In this document: piece by piece, positions 21,517 through 30,799 of the stretch | Layout of the letters: each line of letters opens with the position of its first letter | Numbering within the stretch: the stretch's first letter is position 1 | Origin: an uncultured bacterium | GTDB taxonomy: Bacteria > Pseudomonadota > Gammaproteobacteria > Burkholderiales > Burkholderiaceae_E | Assembly (NCBI GenBank): GCA_903907905.1 | Contig: CAIVPX010000171.1 | Location: forward strand, 41,381 to 105,380 | Direction of reading: 5' to 3' | DNA: 64,000 bases | Notes under the pieces: generated by a model | The model's database searches: none | Told to the model about the DNA's origin: nothing | What the model saw: only the letters and a program-made list of their open reading frames with translations | Program-made: the position numbers and the translations under genes

Positions 21517-22500
21517 TCACTGCGGCTCGATCGCCGCGCGCTTGACGGCCGTTCGCCAGAGTTCGATCTCCGACTGCAGGAAGCCGCTGACCTGCTCCGG
21601 CGTCAGGATCATGGGCTCCCAGTAGGCGTTCTGCTTGAAGAAGTCAGCGGCCTGCGGTGTGCGAAGAATCGCCACCAGGGTCTGGTTCATCTGGCCGACG
21701 ATCTCCGCGGGTGTGCCGGTGCGTGCGAAGACACTCAACCAGGCGCGAAACTGATAATTGGGCAGGCCTTGCTCGGCCACCGTTGGAATGTCCTCGACCC
21801 CCGGCGCACGCTTGGGGGTGGACACGGCCAGGGCATGCACCTTACCACTGCGGATGTGCGGCACCAGCGTGACGAGTGGCTCGAACGCGAGGTCGATCGT
21901 GCCCGAGATCACCTCGGTCACCAGTGAGGCGCTGCCCTTGTAGGGCACGAGCAGCAGATTGATGCCGCTTTCGTACATCAGGCTCTCGATGGCCACGCGC
22001 GTAAAGGCGGTAGCCGAGCCGTAGCTGTATTTGCCCGGGTGCTGACGCGCCAGCGCGATCAGCTCGGGAATGGTCTTGGCCGGGAAGCCAGGCGACACCA
22101 CGAGGGCACCGCCGCCGATTGAAATGCCGCTCACCGGCACGAAGTCTTTCACCGGATCGTAGGGCAGCGACTTGAACAGGCTGACATTCGCGGCGTGCGA
22201 GGTATTGCCGCCGATGACGTAGGTGTAGCCGTCGGCGGGCTGACTCAGGGTGAAATGGGTTCCGACGACGCCATTCACGCCAGGCTTGTTTTCAATGACG
22301 ACCGACTGTTTGACCACCTCGGAGAGTTTTTGCGCGAGGAATCGCGCCTGCAGATCGGTGCTGGTGCCGGGGCCGTAGGGGACGATGAAACGGATTGGGC
22401 GATTGGGGAAGGACTGCGCCAGGGCTTCGGGCGAGCCGAGCAGCACGCCGGCAAGCAGGGTGAGGCCAGTGGCCAGGGCGGTTCGGATCGGACGGTTCAA
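21517..22500 (-). CDS. Bug/TctC family periplasmic solute receptor
   Basis: No ATG fits; the TTG at 22500 is well placed with CCGGAG 7 bases upstream and begins a signal peptide (NRPIRTALATGLTLLAGVLL) cleaved after PEALA, giving 327 residues. Bug hallmarks are PNRPIRFIVPYGPGTSTDLQ, VIENKPGVNGVVG and VPYKGSASLV. The usual PGGxxD ligand loop is PGTSTD here, which may change ligand choice. It lies just downstream of a second Bug gene (41-base gap) on the same strand; no TctA/TctB genes accompany them. Confidence 0.88.
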   Translation of the reverse strand: MNRPIRTALATGLTLLAGVLLGSPEALAQSFPNRPIRFIVPYGPGTSTDLQARFLAQKLSEVVKQSVVIENKPGVNGVVGTHFTLSQPADGYTYVIGGNTSHAANVSLFKSLPYDPVKDFVPVSGISIGGGALVVSPGFPAKTIPELIALARQHPGKYSYGSATAFTRVAIESLMYESGINLLLVPYKGSASLVTEVISGTIDLAFEPLVTLVPHIRSGKVHALAVSTPKRAPGVEDIPTVAEQGLPNYQFRAWLSVFARTGTPAEIVGQMNQTLVAILRTPQAADFFKQNAYWEPMILTPEQVSGFLQSEIELWRTAVKRAAIEPQ

Positions 22501-22541
22501 TTGGTTCTCCGGAGGGGGCAGGCCGCCAGGGCGGCTGCGGG

Positions 22542-23567
22542 TCAATTGTCGAGCACGATCTTGTTGTCGCGAATGAGGGTCGCCCGGGTGCGGCGCTCGG
22601 CGGCGAGGTACTGGTCGAACTGCCCTCGATCCATCGCCATCGGACGCCCCCCCAGAGCTTCCATTCTGCGGATGAACTCGGGGTCCCGAACCGACTCGGC
22701 GATCATGCGGGCCAGGAGCGCCGTGATATCGGCAGGCAGTTTGGCCGGGCCGAAAACGCCAAACCAGCCCTCGGCCTCGAAGCCGGCCAGACCGCTCTCG
22801 GCCACGGTGGGTACCGAGGGCAGGAGGGGGATCCGTTCTCGGCCGGTGACCGCCAGCGCCTTGAGGCGGCCGCTCTGGATGAAGGGCAAGGCCGTGTTGA
22901 CATCGCCAGTCATCATCTGGATCTGGCCGCCGACCACATCATTGACCGCCGGGACGGCACCCTTGTAGGGGATGTGAAGGATGTCGATGGCGGCGCGCGA
23001 CTTGAGCAGTTCGCTCGCCAGATGGGGCGGGCCGCCGGTGCCCGAGGACGCAAAATTGATCTTGCCGGGCTGCCGTTTGGCCTCTGCGATCAGGTCCTGA
23101 AGGGTGTTGGCAGGAAAGCCCGGGTTGACGAAGACCACGTACGGAATCGCTGCGACGGGCGCGATCGCGGTGAGGTCGGTGGCCGGGTTGTAGGACATCT
23201 TTTCGAGGGCAGGGTCGCCGGCTGCCGTATTCGGCGTGCACAGCGCGATGGTGTAGCCATCGGCCGCTGCCAGCGATGCCGCCTTGATGCCCACGATCCC
23301 TGCGGCGCCCGGGCGGTTTTCGACCACCACTGGCTGATTGAGCCGCTTGGACATCTCGAGGCCAAGTTGCCGCCCGATCACGTCGGTGGCGCCGCCCGGG
23401 GGAAAGGGAATGATCAGCCGGATCGGGTTAGCCGGGAAGGACTGGGCCTGCGCAGTGGCCGGAATCGTTGCCCCTAGCCAGGCGCTGGCGATCACGAGAG
23501 GGGCGGCGAAGGCCGCCAGTCTGCGTGCCTGGCGGTGTGGGTTGACTGCGAGGGGGGGCGTTTGCAT
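22542..23567 (-). CDS. Bug/TctC family periplasmic solute receptor
   Basis: The ATG at 23567 (MQTPPLAVNPHRQARRLAAF) with CGGAGA upstream starts a 341-residue precursor; the track start at 23705 is a longer reading of the same frame. The signal peptide ends near ATAQAQS. Bug motifs are PANPIRLIIPFPPGGATDVI, VVENRPGAAGIVGIKA, HIPYKGAVPAVND and PTVAESGLAGFEAEGWFG. It has the standard PPGGATD ligand loop, unlike its neighbour. The tandem pair probably serves two ligands or one pathway, with membrane components shared or encoded elsewhere. Confidence 0.9.
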   Translation of the reverse strand: MQTPPLAVNPHRQARRLAAFAAPLVIASAWLGATIPATAQAQSFPANPIRLIIPFPPGGATDVIGRQLGLEMSKRLNQPVVVENRPGAAGIVGIKAASLAAADGYTIALCTPNTAAGDPALEKMSYNPATDLTAIAPVAAIPYVVFVNPGFPANTLQDLIAEAKRQPGKINFASSGTGGPPHLASELLKSRAAIDILHIPYKGAVPAVNDVVGGQIQMMTGDVNTALPFIQSGRLKALAVTGRERIPLLPSVPTVAESGLAGFEAEGWFGVFGPAKLPADITALLARMIAESVRDPEFIRRMEALGGRPMAMDRGQFDQYLAAERRTRATLIRDNKIVLDN

Positions 23568-23720: not shown

Positions 23721-25139
23721 TCAGAGCCGTTTCGAGTCCTGAGCGATTCGCAGCCTGTGCAGGACCGACCCCGAGGGGATCTCGAGGTCGGCGCCGCACA
23801 GCACCGCCCCCTGCCGGACCGGGCGCACGACGCGGGCGCCCGTGGCCAGGTAGTACGGAACGGGGCGATCGTCGCCGAGCGCTTGCGCAGCCTGCAGGCG
23901 ATAGCCCAGGCCGTTCACGACATGGCGAATGCCCATCTCGAGTCGCTCACCGGGCTCGAGATCGCGGGTGGCCGTGGCGACCAGATCGACGCGCTGCTGC
24001 ACCGTGAGCCCACCCGTGGACAGGCCGAGTTGGACGGCCGACAGCATCGAGGCCGTGGCCTCGGCACCCAGCAGATGCACGGGGTTGTGCAGCAGGACAT
24101 AGCGCCCGACCTGGCAGGTGGGGATGCCCTTGGCGGCAAACAGCCGGCCGGTGGCGGGGTCGGGTGCCTCGATGACGACGAAGACACCGCCTGCGAAGCT
24201 GAGTTCATCGGGGCGGCGCAGGCAGTTGAACATGTCGACGCGACCCGCGCCGCCCAGCAGGCCGCCGTCGGCCGCTGGTCGAAACAGCCAGGGGAGTTCG
24301 GTGGTACGCGCCACCGGCGCGTGCAGGCCCGGGCAGTCGGGCATCAGGCCAGTCTGGTTGGCGACGATCCCCATCTCGCACAGATCGGGAACGGTGGTGA
24401 GCCCGAAGGGCAGGCGCGCGCGCGCCTGTAGTTGGGATTGCATCTGTTGCGCCATGGTCGCGGCATCCGCCCCCTCGGCTGATGCGATCAGCCGAAACGC
24501 GTCAGCGTAGTGCTCGGCCTCGATGGTCTCGCCCCAGGCGCTGATCGTGCGACGCTCCGGGTCCCAGACGAAGTCGGACTCGCTCGCCTTGCCCGCGCTG
24601 ACCACGGGCAGGCCCATCGCCCGCGCCCAGTCGACCAGACCGATCAGCAAACTGGGCTGATCGCCGTCAACCGGCGAATGCACGACGCCGCGTTCGGCCG
24701 CACGCCGGGCCAGTTCGGGTCCCACCACGATCTCGGCTTCCTTCGTGGCCATGACCACGTGTCGGCCGGCCTCGATCGACGCGAGCGCCGTTGCGGCCGC
24801 GCCCTCAGGGTCGCCTGTGGCCTCGAGTACGGCCGCGAGCGGCAGGCTGGCCAGTGTGGCGGCATCGTCGACGATGGCGAGTTCGCCTCGCGCGATGGCC
24901 GCTTCGGCCTCGGTTCGGTCCCGGCAGACCCTGACCTGGGTCTCGGGAATGCCTGCTGCGAGTGCGGCCGCCCGGGCACGGCCCGTGTCCCGGTCGCAAA
25001 CCGCCACACAGGCCAGGCCGCTCATGCGGCGCGACTGGGCAATGAATGTGGCGCCGAACTCGCCGGCACCGACCAGCCCCACCGGAAGGGCTTCGCGCGG
25101 TGAACGCGCGTACCGGTTCAGGATTTGCATGAGGTTCAT
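23721..25139 (-). CDS. SAF-domain NAD(P) oxidoreductase (homoserine dehydrogenase-like, COG4091 type)
   Basis: The start is set at ATG 25139 (MNLMQILNRYARSPREALPV), giving 472 residues; the 601-residue track ORF runs back through the operator and regulator gene. A Rossmann fold with VGLVGAGEFGATFIAQ is followed by a homoserine-dehydrogenase-like region (EATGDPEGAAATAL, VHSPVDGDQPSL), and the C-terminal 80 residues (ARVVRPVRQGAVLCGADLEI) form a SAF domain, as in sialate/altronate-processing proteins. Members of this family occur in sugar-acid loci; the reaction is not established. It is divergent from the GntR gene, and a TCTTGCATGCAAGA palindrome lies 9 bases before its start, so it is probably repressed by that regulator. 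Confidence 0.82.
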   Translation of the reverse strand: MNLMQILNRYARSPREALPVGLVGAGEFGATFIAQSRRMSGLACVAVCDRDTGRARAAALAAGIPETQVRVCRDRTEAEAAIARGELAIVDDAATLASLPLAAVLEATGDPEGAAATALASIEAGRHVVMATKEAEIVVGPELARRAAERGVVHSPVDGDQPSLLIGLVDWARAMGLPVVSAGKASESDFVWDPERRTISAWGETIEAEHYADAFRLIASAEGADAATMAQQMQSQLQARARLPFGLTTVPDLCEMGIVANQTGLMPDCPGLHAPVARTTELPWLFRPAADGGLLGGAGRVDMFNCLRRPDELSFAGGVFVVIEAPDPATGRLFAAKGIPTCQVGRYVLLHNPVHLLGAEATASMLSAVQLGLSTGGLTVQQRVDLVATATRDLEPGERLEMGIRHVVNGLGYRLQAAQALGDDRPVPYYLATGARVVRPVRQGAVLCGADLEIPSGSVLHRLRIAQDSKRL

Positions 25140-25148
25140 GGATCGGAT

Positions 25149-25162
25149 TCTTGCATGCAAGA
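25149..25162. promoter_or_regulatory. GntR-type operator, copy 1 (TCTTGCATGCAAGA)
   Basis: A perfect 14-bp palindrome between the divergent SAF-dehydrogenase gene (start 9 bases away) and the gntR gene (start 59 bases away). The core TTGCATGCAA recurs at 26080-26105 in front of the TRAP genes. Position, symmetry and recurrence around a GntR/FCD gene support an operator for that regulator. Confidence 0.7.
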
Positions 25163-25221
25163 TACGATTGCTGTCAAGATCATTGCTTCTTACACCGCCC
25201 AGATCCGGCCCAACCCGTTCC

Positions 25222-26190
25222 GTGAAAACGCCCGTCTCGAAAACGTCTGCCGCGCGCGCAGGCGCCGACAAGTCGCCCGCGCGTTCAGGCGCTGCGAAGC
25301 CAGCCGTGCGTCGCAGTATCCGGGCGCGTGAGCGCACGCCCTTGCAGGCGCTCACCGCTGCCCATGCCCTTGAGCCCGCGCGCGGCAAGGGCGCGCTGCA
25401 CGGCAACGCGGTATCGCGGTTGCGCAGCCTCATCGTAACGGGCGTGCTCGCCCCAGGGGCAAGGCTCAATGAGCGCGAGTTGTGCGCGTCGCTCGAAGTG
25501 TCGCGCACGCCGGTGCGTGAGGCCATCCGTACCCTCGTTCAGGAGGGGTTGCTGGTGGCCCGCCCCAACCGTTCCCCCGTGGTGGCTGCGCTTGACGCGG
25601 GCGAAACCGCAGCGCTGGTGGATGTGGTGGCCAGTATCGAGTCCTTGGCGGGCGATCTGGCCGCCCGGCGAATCACCGGCGAGGAAGTGGCTGAACTGGG
25701 CATCCTTCACTACACCATGATGCGCTGTCACGCGCGGGACGAGTTGCCGGGCTACTTCGAGGCCAACAAGGCCTTTCATCGGCGCATCGTCGAATGCGCG
25801 GGCAACCCGGTGCTGCTCTGGGTATGGGACCTTCTGGCCTTGCGGGTCGACCGCGCCCGCTATGCGTCCAATCTCTGGCCTACACGCTGGCAGAAGGCGC
25901 TCGATGAGCACGGCGGCATTCTTGCAGCGTTGGGCGCCCATGATCCGGCCGCTGCGGCGTCGGCACTGAGGGATCACGTGAAAAATGGCCTGTCGCTGGT
26001 TGTCCGGTCGTTGGCCGAGCCCGGCGCGGCGCAGGCTCATCCGCCTGCAGAAAGGATCCCGGCCGCCATGCTTGACGTTGCTAAATCTTGCATGCAAGAT
26101 TTAGCGGCTCTGCCCGCACTCCTGACGGCGCGTCGGGGCGGGCCGCAAAAGGTCAGACACAAAACCAAACCAGACAGGGGACGACGATGA
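25222..26190 (+). CDS. GntR family transcriptional regulator, FCD (FadR-like) subfamily
   Basis: The N-terminus is uncertain: GTG 25222 gives 322 residues with a basic Ala-rich leader; GTG 25306 is an alternative; typical members have about 230-250. The winged helix (LRSLIVTGVLAPGARLNERE, then LEVSRTPVREAIRTLVQEGL) is the GntR DNA-binding domain. The FCD ligand domain follows, with metal-type histidines in HYTMMRCHARDEL, NKAFHRRIVE and the DHV helix near ALRDHVKNG. Its last 45 codons overlap a perfect operator palindrome at 26080-26105, and the stop overlaps the TRAP receptor start in an ATGA. It probably represses both the divergent dehydrogenase and the TRAP operon until a sugar acid or related carboxylate binds. 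Confidence 0.88.
   Translation: MKTPVSKTSAARAGADKSPARSGAAKPAVRRSIRARERTPLQALTAAHALEPARGKGALHGNAVSRLRSLIVTGVLAPGARLNERELCASLEVSRTPVREAIRTLVQEGLLVARPNRSPVVAALDAGETAALVDVVASIESLAGDLAARRITGEEVAELGILHYTMMRCHARDELPGYFEANKAFHRRIVECAGNPVLLWVWDLLALRVDRARYASNLWPTRWQKALDEHGGILAALGAHDPAAAASALRDHVKNGLSLVVRSLAEPGAAQAHPPAERIPAAMLDVAKSCMQDLAALPALLTARRGGPQKVRHKTKPDRGRR
26080..26105. promoter_or_regulatory. GntR-type operator, copy 2 (perfect 26-bp palindrome inside gntR)
   Basis: The half-site GCTAAATCTTGCA is followed directly by its exact reverse complement, a perfect 26-bp palindrome. It lies within the 3' end of the gntR coding frame, 81 bases before the TRAP receptor start. The core equals copy 1 upstream of the SAF dehydrogenase. 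It probably controls a promoter internal to gntR that drives the transporter operon; a hairpin in the mRNA is also possible. Confidence 0.72.
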
Positions 26191-27200
26191 CGCATACCCA
26201 GCATTCCAAACGACGCCGCCTGCTGCAGGCGGGTGCAGCTTTCGCAGCCGGGTCCGCCTGGGTGCTCCCGGCTCGCGCCAATGTCGAACTGAAGCTTACG
26301 CACCCGGCCGATATCTCACACCCGGTGCATACCGAAGCCGAAAAAATGGCGCAGCGCGTGGCCGAGAAAACCAAGGGGGCGGTGAAGATCACCCTGTTCC
26401 CGAACAATGCGCTCGGCTCGCCGGTTGAAACCGCTCAGCAGACCCGGCTTGGCGCCATCGACATGATTCTGATGAATCCCGCCAACATCGAGTCCATCTC
26501 CAAGGCCGTTGGCGTCATCAACATTCCCTACCAGTTCGACAGCTATGCGCATGCGCACAAGACGCTTGATGTCACGGCCCGAGCCTGGCTGGCCAAGCAT
26601 CTCGCCACGGCTGGTTTTGCCTGGATCGCCAATTTCGAGTGGGGGTTTCGCGCGCTCTCAAATAGCCGCCGGCCCATCAACGCGCCCGACGATGTCAAGG
26701 GGCTCAAGCTGCGCGTGCCGCCCGAACTCGCGATCAAGTCGGCGTTTGAGGCCCTTGGCGCCTCGACGCAGACCATCGCCTTCCAGGAGGTGTATCTGGC
26801 CCTGGCCAACAAGGCGGTCGACGGTCAGGACAACCCCATTGGCACCACCTTTGCAGCCAAGTTCTTCGAGGTGCAGAGCCATGTCGCGCTGACCCGTCAC
26901 ATTTACACCTCGATCATGCTCGCGGCCAACCCGCGTGCATGGCAGAACAAACTCGACGAGGCCCAACGCAAGATCATCACCGAGGAGGCAAGCCTCGCCG
27001 GCAGCAATGCGCGCAGGCTGGTGCAGGAGGCCGAGGAGGCCAATCTCGCGAAAATGCAGCAGGCCGGGGTAGCCATCACGCGTCCCAACGTGGCCCCCTT
27101 CCGTGATCGCATGGGGCCGGCCTACGAGGTGCTGCGCAAGAGCCTGGGCGACGACATCTGGAACGAGTGGATGAAACTGGTCTCGGCTGCTCGGGCCTGA
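26187..27200 (+). CDS. dctP: TRAP transporter solute receptor (DctP)
   Basis: The ATG at 26187 overlaps the gntR stop (ATGA), with AGGGGA upstream; 337 residues. The signal MTHTQHSKRRRLLQAGAAFA contains a twin-Arg-like RRR stretch but lacks a clean Tat motif; cleavage is after PARA. DctP features are LKLTHPADISHPVHTEAEKM, PNNALGSPVETAQQTRLGAI and LKLRVPPELAIKSAFEALGA, where the conserved Arg binds the ligand carboxylate, and GQDNPIGTTFAAKFFEVQSH. It captures an organic acid in the periplasm for the DctM/DctQ pair encoded next. Confidence 0.93.
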   Translation: MTHTQHSKRRRLLQAGAAFAAGSAWVLPARANVELKLTHPADISHPVHTEAEKMAQRVAEKTKGAVKITLFPNNALGSPVETAQQTRLGAIDMILMNPANIESISKAVGVINIPYQFDSYAHAHKTLDVTARAWLAKHLATAGFAWIANFEWGFRALSNSRRPINAPDDVKGLKLRVPPELAIKSAFEALGASTQTIAFQEVYLALANKAVDGQDNPIGTTFAAKFFEVQSHVALTRHIYTSIMLAANPRAWQNKLDEAQRKIITEEASLAGSNARRLVQEAEEANLAKMQQAGVAITRPNVAPFRDRMGPAYEVLRKSLGDDIWNEWMKLVSAARA

Positions 27201-27252: not shown

Positions 27253-28551
27253 GTGCTGCTGACCGGCATTCTGCTGTCGGTTTGCCTCACCATCCTAATC
27301 GGGTTGCCGATCGCGCCCGCGCTTGCGCTGGTGGCGATCGGCACCATGCTGGTCACCAGCGGCCCCGATCTGCTGGTGGTCTTCATTCAGCGCGCCTACG
27401 CGGCCACCACCTCGTTCCCGCTGCTGGCCATCCCGTTTTTCATTCTCGCCGGCAATCTCATGAATGTCGGGGGCACCACCGAGCGCATCTTCGATGTGGC
27501 GCGCCTGATGGTGGGGCGTGTCCGCGGCGGCCTGGCCCAGGTCAATGTGCTGTCGAGCATGATCTTCGCCGGCATGTCAGGTTCTGCGGTGGCCGATGCC
27601 GCGGGCCTGGGCGTGGTCGAGATCCGGGCCATGACCCGGCATGGCTATCAACCCGAGTACGCGGCCACCATCACCGCCGTGTCATCGACCATCGGCCCCA
27701 TCATTCCGCCCAGCATCCCCTTCGTCATCTTCGGCAGCCTCGCCAATGTCTCGGTGGGCGCCCTGTTCCTCGCGGGCATTGTGCCGGGTCTGCTGATCGG
27801 GTTCGGCCTGATGGTGGCGATCGCCATCGCCGCGCGGCGCCGCAATTTGCCGCGATCGGAAGGTTTTCAGTCGCGTGCAGTGGTGCTTCGAACCCTGGTG
27901 CGCGCGGCACCCGCGCTGGCCCTGCCCCCCCTGATTCTTTGGGCGATTTTCGGTGGCGTCGCGACCCCCACCGAGGCATCGGTGCTGGCCGCCGCCTACG
28001 CCTTCGTCCTGGGGCGCTTCGTCTACGGCGAATTGTCGCTGCGCGATATCGAGCGAATTCTCTGGGATACCGGCCGCCAGACTACGCAGGTCCTGTTCAT
28101 CATCGCCATGGCCGCTCCCTTCGGCTGGGTGATGGTGCAGCAACAGGTGCCCAATGCCATCCTGCAGGCGCTCCTGTCGCTGTCACGTGAGCCGTGGGTC
28201 ATCCTGCTGCTGGTCAACATTGCCCTGCTGGTCTTGGGTATGTTTCTCGAAACCATCGCGATCATGATTCTGGCGTATCCCATTCTTGCGCCCGTCATGG
28301 CGGCCATCGGTGTCGACCCCATTCACTTCGGCGTCATCCTGGTGCTCAACATGATGATCGGTCTGGTCACGCCGCCCGTGGGCTTGTGTCTGTATGTGGT
28401 CGCCGGGATCGCCCGGGTGCCGGTCGCGGCCATCGTGCGTGAGCTCACGCCCTATCTGCTCGCCTTGCTGGTGGTCCTCGGCGTGGTCACCTATGTTCCA
28501 GCGCTTTCCACCTGGTTGCCCAAGGCCTTCGGTCTGGGGGTGATCCGTTGA
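27253..28551 (+). CDS. dctM: TRAP transporter large permease (DctM)
   Basis: 432 residues, about twelve hydrophobic segments. Family motifs are FPLLAIPFFILAGNLMN, IFAGMSGSAVADAAGLG and STIGPIIPPSIPFVIFGSLA, corresponding to the sodium- and substrate-site hairpins. The start is a GTG at 27253 with a G-rich upstream stretch; the 52-base gap after dctP holds no other start. It performs sodium-driven uptake with DctQ. It comes before dctQ, whereas P-Q-M is the common order. Confidence 0.93.
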   Translation: MLLTGILLSVCLTILIGLPIAPALALVAIGTMLVTSGPDLLVVFIQRAYAATTSFPLLAIPFFILAGNLMNVGGTTERIFDVARLMVGRVRGGLAQVNVLSSMIFAGMSGSAVADAAGLGVVEIRAMTRHGYQPEYAATITAVSSTIGPIIPPSIPFVIFGSLANVSVGALFLAGIVPGLLIGFGLMVAIAIAARRRNLPRSEGFQSRAVVLRTLVRAAPALALPPLILWAIFGGVATPTEASVLAAAYAFVLGRFVYGELSLRDIERILWDTGRQTTQVLFIIAMAAPFGWVMVQQQVPNAILQALLSLSREPWVILLLVNIALLVLGMFLETIAIMILAYPILAPVMAAIGVDPIHFGVILVLNMMIGLVTPPVGLCLYVVAGIARVPVAAIVRELTPYLLALLVVLGVVTYVPALSTWLPKAFGLGVIR

Positions 28552-28552
28552 C

Positions 28553-29053
28553 ATGAACGCGCTGGCGCGACTCGATTCGCTGGTGGCGCGAGCCTGCCGC
28601 CTGTGCGTGGTGGCCTGCCTGGTGGGGCTTTTCGCCCTGCTCGTGCTTGGCATGATTCAGCGACTGGTGCCGGTGCTGCATCTCCAGGGCTATGACGAAC
28701 TCATCGAGTTGCTTTTCATCTGGCTCACCTGTCCAGGGGCGGTCGCGCTCTGGCGCGAGGGCTCGCTTTATCGTGTCAATGCACTCGATCGCCTGTTGCC
28801 GCCGGTGGGCCGTCGCCTCTGGTGGAGCGCGATCCATGTCGGGATGCTGGCGGTCGCACTGGCCCTTGCGGTGGTCGGCTTTGATTTCGTTCGCATGTCG
28901 GGCGAGACCACGCCCTATCTGCAGTGGAACAAGGCCTGGTGGTATCTGGCCATCCCCGTGTGCGGCACGCTCATGGCGCTTTACAGTGCGGTCGCCATCT
29001 GGCGCACGGCTCGCGGCGACATCACCTTGCGCGACGATCTGGAAGGACTCTGA
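28553..29053 (+). CDS. dctQ: TRAP transporter small permease (DctQ)
   Basis: 166 residues with four hydrophobic segments, starting MNALARLDSLVARACRLCVV one base after the dctM stop. The conserved DctQ region is GYDELIELLFIWLTCPGAVALW, where Glu and Trp sit in the second helix pair. It supports DctM in the membrane complex. It is followed 1 base later by the SDR gene, so transport and catabolism are on one transcript. Confidence 0.9.
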   Translation: MNALARLDSLVARACRLCVVACLVGLFALLVLGMIQRLVPVLHLQGYDELIELLFIWLTCPGAVALWREGSLYRVNALDRLLPPVGRRLWWSAIHVGMLAVALALAVVGFDFVRMSGETTPYLQWNKAWWYLAIPVCGTLMALYSAVAIWRTARGDITLRDDLEGL

Positions 29054-29054
29054 C

Positions 29055-29825
29055 ATGCACCGACTTCAAGGCAAGGTGGCCCTCATTACGGGCGGTGCCG
29101 GCGGCATCGGTTCAGCCACCGCACGACGCTTCTGCGAGGAGGGCGCCTCGGTCGTCCTGGTCGATCTGGCCGATTCACCATTGGGCCAGGTGGCGGCTGA
29201 CATTCGTGCGACGGTGGCGGGTGCGCAGGTGCTCGAGGTCGCGGCCGACGTGGGGGTAGAGACGGAGTCGGTGCGCCTGGTGCGGGCGGCCATCGATCGC
29301 TTCGGTCATCTCGATGTGCTCGTGAACAATGCCGGGATTCGTGCCTATGAGCCGCTTGCCGAGGCCCGCGCCGACACCTGGGCGCGCATCCTCCAGGTCA
29401 ATCTGCTCAGTTATGCCTATCTGTCACGCGAGGCCCTGCCTGCCTTGCGTCAGTCCGGCCGCGGCGCCATCGTCAATGTCTCGAGCACCCATGCGGTCAA
29501 TCCCCGCGCGGGGATGGGCCAATACGATGTGGCCAAGGCCGGCATTCTGTCTCTCACCCGTACGCTTGCCTTCGAGGAAGCCCCCCATCGCGTGCGCGTC
29601 AATGCCGTGTGCCCTGGCCTGACGCTCACGCCGTTTCATGTGGCGCGCGCGGCCCCCTCGGGCAAGACCGAGCACGACCTGCGCACCGAGTTGGTCGATG
29701 TCAACCTGCAACGACGCTGGGCCGACCCGCGAGAGGTGGCCCATCCCATTCTTTGGCTCGCCTCGGATGAGGCCTCTTTCATGACGGCGGCCACACTCAT
29801 GGTCGATGGAGGCACGCGCGTATGA
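29055..29825 (+). CDS. SDR family oxidoreductase
   Basis: 256 residues from ATG 29055; the track start at 28692 is in the wrong frame of dctQ. Classical SDR features are TGGAGGIGSATA (cofactor glycine motif), DVLVNNAGI, catalytic Ser in IVNVSSTHAVN and YDVAK for the Tyr/Lys pair. The acidic residue after the second strand (VLVDLAD) favours NAD. Such enzymes oxidise sugars or hydroxy acids; beside a lactonase-like amidohydrolase it could be a sugar dehydrogenase producing a lactone, which is inference. Confidence 0.9.
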   Translation: MHRLQGKVALITGGAGGIGSATARRFCEEGASVVLVDLADSPLGQVAADIRATVAGAQVLEVAADVGVETESVRLVRAAIDRFGHLDVLVNNAGIRAYEPLAEARADTWARILQVNLLSYAYLSREALPALRQSGRGAIVNVSSTHAVNPRAGMGQYDVAKAGILSLTRTLAFEEAPHRVRVNAVCPGLTLTPFHVARAAPSGKTEHDLRTELVDVNLQRRWADPREVAHPILWLASDEASFMTAATLMVDGGTRV

Positions 29826-30799
29826 GCCCGAACCGACTCCCGACCATTCATGGCCACTGGAATGAATCGCCCGACGCCGTCACGCTGGTCGATGCCCATC
29901 ACCATGTCTGGGACCTTGACCGCAACGATTACCCCTGGCTGCGCGACCATCCGGAGCCGAACTTCTTCCTCGGCAACTACGATGGATTGAAGCGCAACTA
30001 TCTGCCGGAGCAGTATCGCGCCGATGCCAGTGCGCACAATGTGCTGGCCACGGTGCACTGCGAGGCCGAGTGGGATCGCAAGGATCAGGTCGGTGAAACC
30101 CGATGGCTCACCCAATTGAGCGCCGACCAGGGCATGCCGGCTGCGATCGTGGCCCATGCCTGGTTTCACACCGACAATTCCGAAGAGGTGCTCGCGCGGC
30201 AGGCTCAATTTCCCATGGTGCGGGGCATTCGGTCCAAGCCGGTCACCTCGCTCAGCCCTGACACCATGACGCCCGGCGCGCCGGGAACCATGCAGGACCC
30301 GCGCTGGCTCGAGGGCTACTCGCGGCTCGAGCGGCACGGCTTCTCCTGGGACCTGCGCGTGCCGTTCTGGCACTTGCCCGAGGCCGCAGAGGTGGTGGCG
30401 ATGTTTCCGCGCACGCCTGTGGTGCTCAATCACACCGGTTTTCCCTGGGACCGCAGCGAACCAGGACTGGCTGCCTGGCGGCGTGCCATGGAGGTCATCG
30501 CCCGTCAGCCTCATGTGCATCTCAAGGTGTCCGAGTTCGGTCTGAAGGACCAAGCCTGGAATTACGAGTCCAATCGCCGCATCGTGCTCGAGGCCGTCTC
30601 CATCTTCGGCATCGAGCGGTGCATGTTCGCCAGCAATTTTCCCGTGTCGGGTTTGCGGGTGTCCTACGACGAACTGGTGCGCTCGGTGGCCCGCATGCTC
30701 GAGCCCTTCAGTGCGGCTGAGCGACGGGCCTTTTTCGTGGACAACGCTGTCCGCTTCTACCGGCTTGATCTGCCCGGGCTCGCCGCGCTGACCGACTGA
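29822..30799 (+). CDS. amidohydrolase-2 / lactonase-like protein (COG3618 type)
   Basis: 325 residues starting at ATG 29822 in an ATGA overlap with the SDR. It is a TIM-barrel metal hydrolase of the L-fuconolactonase-like group: LVDAHHHVWDLDRNDYPWL holds the HxH metal motif near the N-terminus, VLNHTGFPWD the barrel histidine, and CMFASNFPVSGL the eighth strand, where Asn stands where many relatives have the catalytic Asp. Hydrolysis of a sugar lactone or a related cyclic ester is likely. It ends the GntR-TRAP operon. Confidence 0.87.
   Translation: MSPNRLPTIHGHWNESPDAVTLVDAHHHVWDLDRNDYPWLRDHPEPNFFLGNYDGLKRNYLPEQYRADASAHNVLATVHCEAEWDRKDQVGETRWLTQLSADQGMPAAIVAHAWFHTDNSEEVLARQAQFPMVRGIRSKPVTSLSPDTMTPGAPGTMQDPRWLEGYSRLERHGFSWDLRVPFWHLPEAAEVVAMFPRTPVVLNHTGFPWDRSEPGLAAWRRAMEVIARQPHVHLKVSEFGLKDQAWNYESNRRIVLEAVSIFGIERCMFASNFPVSGLRVSYDELVRSVARMLEPFSAAERRAFFVDNAVRFYRLDLPGLAALTD

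Follow-up and report, generated by a model that had tools for sequence, protein, structure and literature searches.

Two copies of a palindromic 14-bp core, O1 and O2, flanked a gntR gene in the window, that is, the whole 64,000-nt stretch of DNA that was analysed. With a probability of about 0.82, they are paired operators for a GntR (FCD) repressor with a local, self-linked regulon, O2 on the promoter of a TRAP transporter operon and O1 on the promoter of a divergent dehydrogenase gene. This putative operator and promoter arrangement gives a precise, testable prediction for an uncharacterised TRAP/DRL-dehydrogenase catabolic cluster of Burkholderiales and Bosea.

Gene content of the locus

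The features of the locus are listed in Table 1. The gntR product matched PF00392 (6e-18) and PF07729 (5e-26), each match passing the gathering score, and belongs to the FCD (FadR/VanR) subfamily of the GntR family, with a winged helix-turn-helix domain at the N-terminus and an FCD domain at the C-terminus. The genome carried a canonical dxr elsewhere and also a second DRL-type paralogue (36%); therefore, the DXR-II/DRL-type dehydrogenase (23721–25139) probably has a catabolic rather than an isoprenoid role. Directly beyond the dehydrogenase gene, two adjacent Bug/TctC-type receptor genes were found on the minus strand (21517–23567); the TctC domain was confirmed for 22542–23567, and the other receptor gene was assigned from its sequence.

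Table 1. Genes, putative operators and predicted promoter elements of the locus (window positions).
Feature	Position	Strand	Basis and remarks
Divergent DRL_cat/SAF-type oxidoreductase	23721–25139	−	Pfam PF21135 (6e-27); conserved N-terminus MNLxxI(F/L)
Predicted −10 CAAGAA of the dehydrogenase promoter	25148–25153	−	18-nt spacer; overlaps O1; 8 nt from the ATG
O1, core TCTTGCATGCAAGA	25149–25162		Putative operator between the divergent dehydrogenase gene and gntR; conservation, PWM
Predicted −35 TTGACA of the divergent dehydrogenase promoter	25172–25177	−	Sequence and relatives
gntR (GntR HTH and FCD), open frame	25222–26190	+	Domains to ~26013; no homology in the tail that follows
Read-through tail of the gntR frame across O2	26014–26190	+	Stop TGA (26188–26190) overlaps the dctP ATG (26187)
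Predicted −35 TTGACG of the TRAP operon promoter	26072–26077	+	Contains the out-of-frame TGA 26073–26075; alignment of relatives
O2, core TCTTGCATGCAAGA	26086–26099 (full palindrome 26080–26105)		Putative operator of the TRAP operon promoter; conservation, PWM
Predicted −10 CAAGAT of the TRAP operon promoter	26095–26100	+	17-nt spacer; right palindrome arm; 3/6 to consensus
dctP, TRAP solute receptor	26187–27200	+	Domain match
dctM, TRAP large permease	27253–28551	+	Domain match
dctQ, TRAP small permease	28553–29053	+	Domain match
SDR dehydrogenase	29055–29825	+	Domain match; kept in the operon among relatives
Amidohydrolase, lactonase-like	29822–30799	+	Frequent member of the cluster in relatives

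The palindrome and its repeated core

The first-pass annotation had reported an exact 26-bp palindrome, GCTAAATCTTGCATGCAAGATTTAGC, within the gntR open frame (O2) and a second copy of its core (O1) on the other side of the gene. Both were verified, and the distances given for them were correct, with 81 bases between the palindrome and the dctP ATG and 9 bases between O1 and the dehydrogenase ATG (25139). Apart from O2, no even palindrome in the window had arms of more than 9 bp; about 0.003 palindromes with arms of at least 13 were expected from base composition. No second copy of the 26-mer with up to 3 mismatches was found in the window, and 100 shuffles gave 0.

The core had exactly two copies in the 4.43-Mb genome, one on each side of gntR, while the reversed control pattern had 0. 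With 2 mismatches allowed, three extra sites were found genome-wide, all asymmetric. Among 399 genomes of the order, the core was present in 5 and occurred twice only here and in the genome G057, flanking gntR both times. Exact core matches in two loci of the same order (L067 and L068) were discarded, their sequence context being unrelated. A PWM for the operator, trained on the relatives' sites with the window sites excluded, ranked O2 (37.5 bits) and O1 (29.6 bits) first and second in the window, and the third-best site scored 7.1.

In another genome (G359, L065:1474–1514), a dctA-like carrier gene was preceded by two tandem sites, one an exact core and the other close to it in sequence. The end of this locus resembles another gntR gene; it may hold the same type of site in a different regulon.

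Conservation of O2 and O1 in relatives

A scan of contigs with a single sequence found no loci, and the alignment of three orthologues as query gave 51 loci with named organisms. In 24 of the 51 loci, the GntR was at least 59% identical (Lautropia, Ramlibacter, Rubrivivax, Comamonadaceae, Bosea, and related Hyphomicrobiales); together with G057 (L005), they formed the orthologous set (n = 25). L004/L033 (G016) and L070 represent one Lautropia contig, which was counted once.

TRAP genes lay downstream of gntR in 15 of the 25 orthologous loci and were absent there in 10. O2 with at most 2 mismatches was present in 14 of the 15 TRAP loci, the fifteenth (L092) having 3 mismatches. In the orthologues without TRAP genes downstream it was found in 0/10, the closest match having at least 5 mismatches; shuffled regions gave an O2-like site (at most 2 mismatches) in 1/1000. 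The Fisher test of O2 versus TRAP genes downstream gave 3e-6, a value that overstates independence, as the loci are akin. Bosea loci were nevertheless present in both groups, with and without TRAP genes downstream. Given 14/15 versus 0/10, O2 tracks the transporter operon and not the 3' end of gntR. Its position, uniqueness, conservation and TRAP dependence were all directly observed. Loss of the palindrome in orthologues of the same synteny had been named in the first-pass annotation as evidence against its proposal; these orthologues have kept the palindrome, as intergenic promoter DNA.

O1 was also kept in most of the 14 O2-bearing relatives (Burkholderiales and Bosea). In distant homologues (33–46% identity), the pattern TTG[TC]AT[AG]CAA was found up to 400 bp upstream of gntR in 22/27 loci. 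This upstream 400 bp held 34 of its 37 occurrences in the distant loci, and the reversed pattern had 0 in 227 kb. The half-sites were TTGC/GCAA in the window, with TTGT/ACAA on one side at several relatives' sites. Agreement with the FCD-subfamily pattern was partial: the palindrome and its place near the regulator's own gene agreed, but the subfamily boxes are TKGT/ACMA, against TTGC/GCAA in the window. On these comparisons, the palindrome is very likely a binding site of the neighbouring GntR.

Predicted promoters at O2 and O1

When sequences were anchored on the core, TTGAC was found at 15/15 TRAP loci and in the window, and at 0/10 loci without TRAP genes. Its offset from the core was −14 or −15 in 12/15 loci and −32 in 3/15. 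After 17–18 nt it was followed by CAAGAT, CAAAAT, CAACTT, or CAAGGT, which is the right operator arm. The A2 and T6 of the −10 were kept in 11/12 loci with the −14/−15 layout, the exception being L082. The strict sigma-70 consensus scan of the promoter region made no call, since the −10 matches only 3/6 positions.

In the Ramlibacter loci L072 (4710–4754) and L089 (2891–2943), the −10 was CATGAT. Here the −35 lay 32 nt before O2 and CATGAT overlapped an extra half-site, so that the operator is downstream of the −10.

The TGA that ends gntR in ten relatives sat inside TTGACg/c. TTGAC persisted in five relatives with the stop elsewhere, and in the window, which argues that its conservation reflects a promoter box rather than a stop. 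Where stop codon and predicted −35 overlap, as in these ten relatives, the same bases serve two uses in a small and clear way, differing in kind from that proposed in the first-pass annotation. Published cases of a stop codon overlapping a −35 box ahead of a GntR-controlled operon were sought, with no useful result.

For the dehydrogenase gene, the core ended 6–9 nt before the ATG of the conserved N-terminus in the eight loci with the dehydrogenase adjacent, window included. The TTGA of the −35 was found at 18 nt in 6/8 of these loci and was absent in L072 and L089. If the −10 is correct, the dehydrogenase message is predicted to start a few bases from its start codon and to be leaderless.

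Regulatory model and alternatives

We infer binding of GntR to the two sites, repression rather than activation, and a ligand. A GntR dimer on O2 would cover the spacer and the −10 of the TRAP operon promoter, and a dimer on O1 would cover the divergent dehydrogenase promoter in the same way. The bound dimer would exclude RNA polymerase until GntR is released by a catabolic ligand, and the regulon would serve to import a carbon source and carry out its first oxidation. A ligand-released repressor over two promoters is the most likely mechanism. Of the first-pass annotation, the two matched operators, the self-linked regulon and the control of the transporter operon are supported by the conservation and a footprint precedent; the part that places the operator in the gntR coding sequence is not supported, O2 lying after the stop in 14/14 relatives.

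Autoregulation of the lac O3 kind, acting on top of the promoter block, was judged unlikely. Here, the repressor bound at O2 would stop polymerase coming from gntR, and the stopless mRNA would be tmRNA-tagged. The lac repressor acts so from O3, which lies where lacI ends (PMC3711431), and the conserved stop-to-core distance of 11–12 nt, together with the lack of an in-frame stop before O2 in the window, would have polymerase stall no later than at the stop. However, the position of the TGA within the −35 box accounts for the spacing, and the stop was 45–83 nt upstream of the core in five relatives. Our analysis gives a slightly smaller chance still to the full form, in which O2 would work twice, blocking the TRAP promoter and halting polymerase before the gntR stop, with the repressor level set by tmRNA tagging. 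If true, the conserved stop-to-operator spacing with the stop in the −35 would be an evolved trait in two classes of Proteobacteria.

Similarly improbable is that GntR is an activator at O1 and O2, in the manner of Ms0535, an activator whose binding site has almost the same core. Both O1 and O2 overlap the predicted −35/−10 spacer and the −10, which is a repressor position; the operator downstream of the −10 in 3 relatives also argues against activation.

Position of O2 relative to the end of gntR

The gntR frame (25222–26190) was open across the palindrome. The FCD domain ended at residue 254–264 of 322, about 70 bp before O2 (before ~26014), and the palindrome therefore lies in a tail beyond the fold. 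The search of orthologous gntR genes, suggested in the first-pass annotation, for DNA-level conservation of the palindrome found the site behind the gene, the O2 core beginning after the gntR stop in each of the 14 O2-bearing relatives. In this group, the stop-to-core distance was 11–12 nt in ten relatives and 45–83 nt in four. Scored by local codon usage, the gntR frame was mostly positive to ~26037 and negative beyond, the coding signal thus ending ahead of O2. The tail gave no alignment to anything in the orthologues. In the window, TGA (26073–26075) was found at the same +11 offset as the relatives' stop, but out of the gntR frame. Frame scoring located no frameshift point in gntR, and the same-genus genomes held no gntR orthologue, the best match being about 35%.

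These alignments are best explained by an O2 that ancestrally lay just behind the gntR stop; here, the frame would miss this stop and read through O2 without evident function. Either an indel shift or an assembly error (the genome has 190 contigs) would account for the 3' end of gntR. On this comparison, the position of O2 inside gntR is peculiar to the local sequence and appears as a reading-frame accident, not a shared DNA code.

An operator truly within the gntR coding sequence, with both constraints on the same bases, had been the proposal of the first-pass annotation, and the open frame across O2, ending in an ATGA overlap with dctP, agrees with it. We consider it very unlikely, as O2 follows the gntR stop in every relative, the tail has neither homologue nor coding signal, and the ancestral-looking TGA stands out of frame at the conserved +11 offset. 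Whether an indel or an assembly error is the cause, shared coding and operator constraint on these bases is not supported. The locus illustrates how an operator can look intragenic simply because the stop codon has shifted its place while the promoter stayed where it was.

Least probable is that the palindrome works as RNA, forming a terminator or attenuator hairpin behind gntR: its predicted folding is good (z −2.8), but no T-run follows the palindrome, relatives' variants such as TTGCATACAA break RNA pairs on one side with the half-site pattern kept, and the hairpin and terminator readings were rejected on the terminator scan, which found none on the plus strand, and on the same motif at O1, upstream of genes.

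Comparison with known systems

The paired-operator model was compared with three known cases. The DNase I footprint of Ms0535 from Mycobacterium smegmatis, a VanR-like regulator of the GntR/FadR subfamily, is CCTTGCATGCATTCTTGCATGCAAGG (PMC4609117). It contains TCTTGCATGCAAGG, which is 13/14 bases of the core; the likeness is in the site, and the regulators were compared by site. As here, the Ms0535 site lies beside its own gene and a transporter gene. Ms0535 was reported as an activator with a single footprint (PMC4609117), and it differs from the present system in both respects, as well as in its MFS permease and its phylum.

In FadR-subfamily GntR regulons, double sites are specific to an operon and additional half-sites occur (Suvorova et al., 2015, PMC4494728). 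The present locus shares with them an A/T-flanked palindrome, TTG(T/C)..(A/G)CAA half-sites 2 nt apart, a local self-linked regulon, one site per operon, and extra half-sites in some relatives. However, the core here has mostly GC where the FadR subfamily has GT/AC, and the second site separates gntR from a co-directional operon, whereas the FadR-subfamily second site lies in the divergon.

The lac repressor at operator O3, at the end of lacI, blocks transcription from lacI (PMC3711431). In both systems, the 3' end of the regulator gene carries an operator, putative in the present case, for the gene's own product, and the controlled operon follows; unlike lac O3, O2 is itself the predicted promoter-blocking operator.
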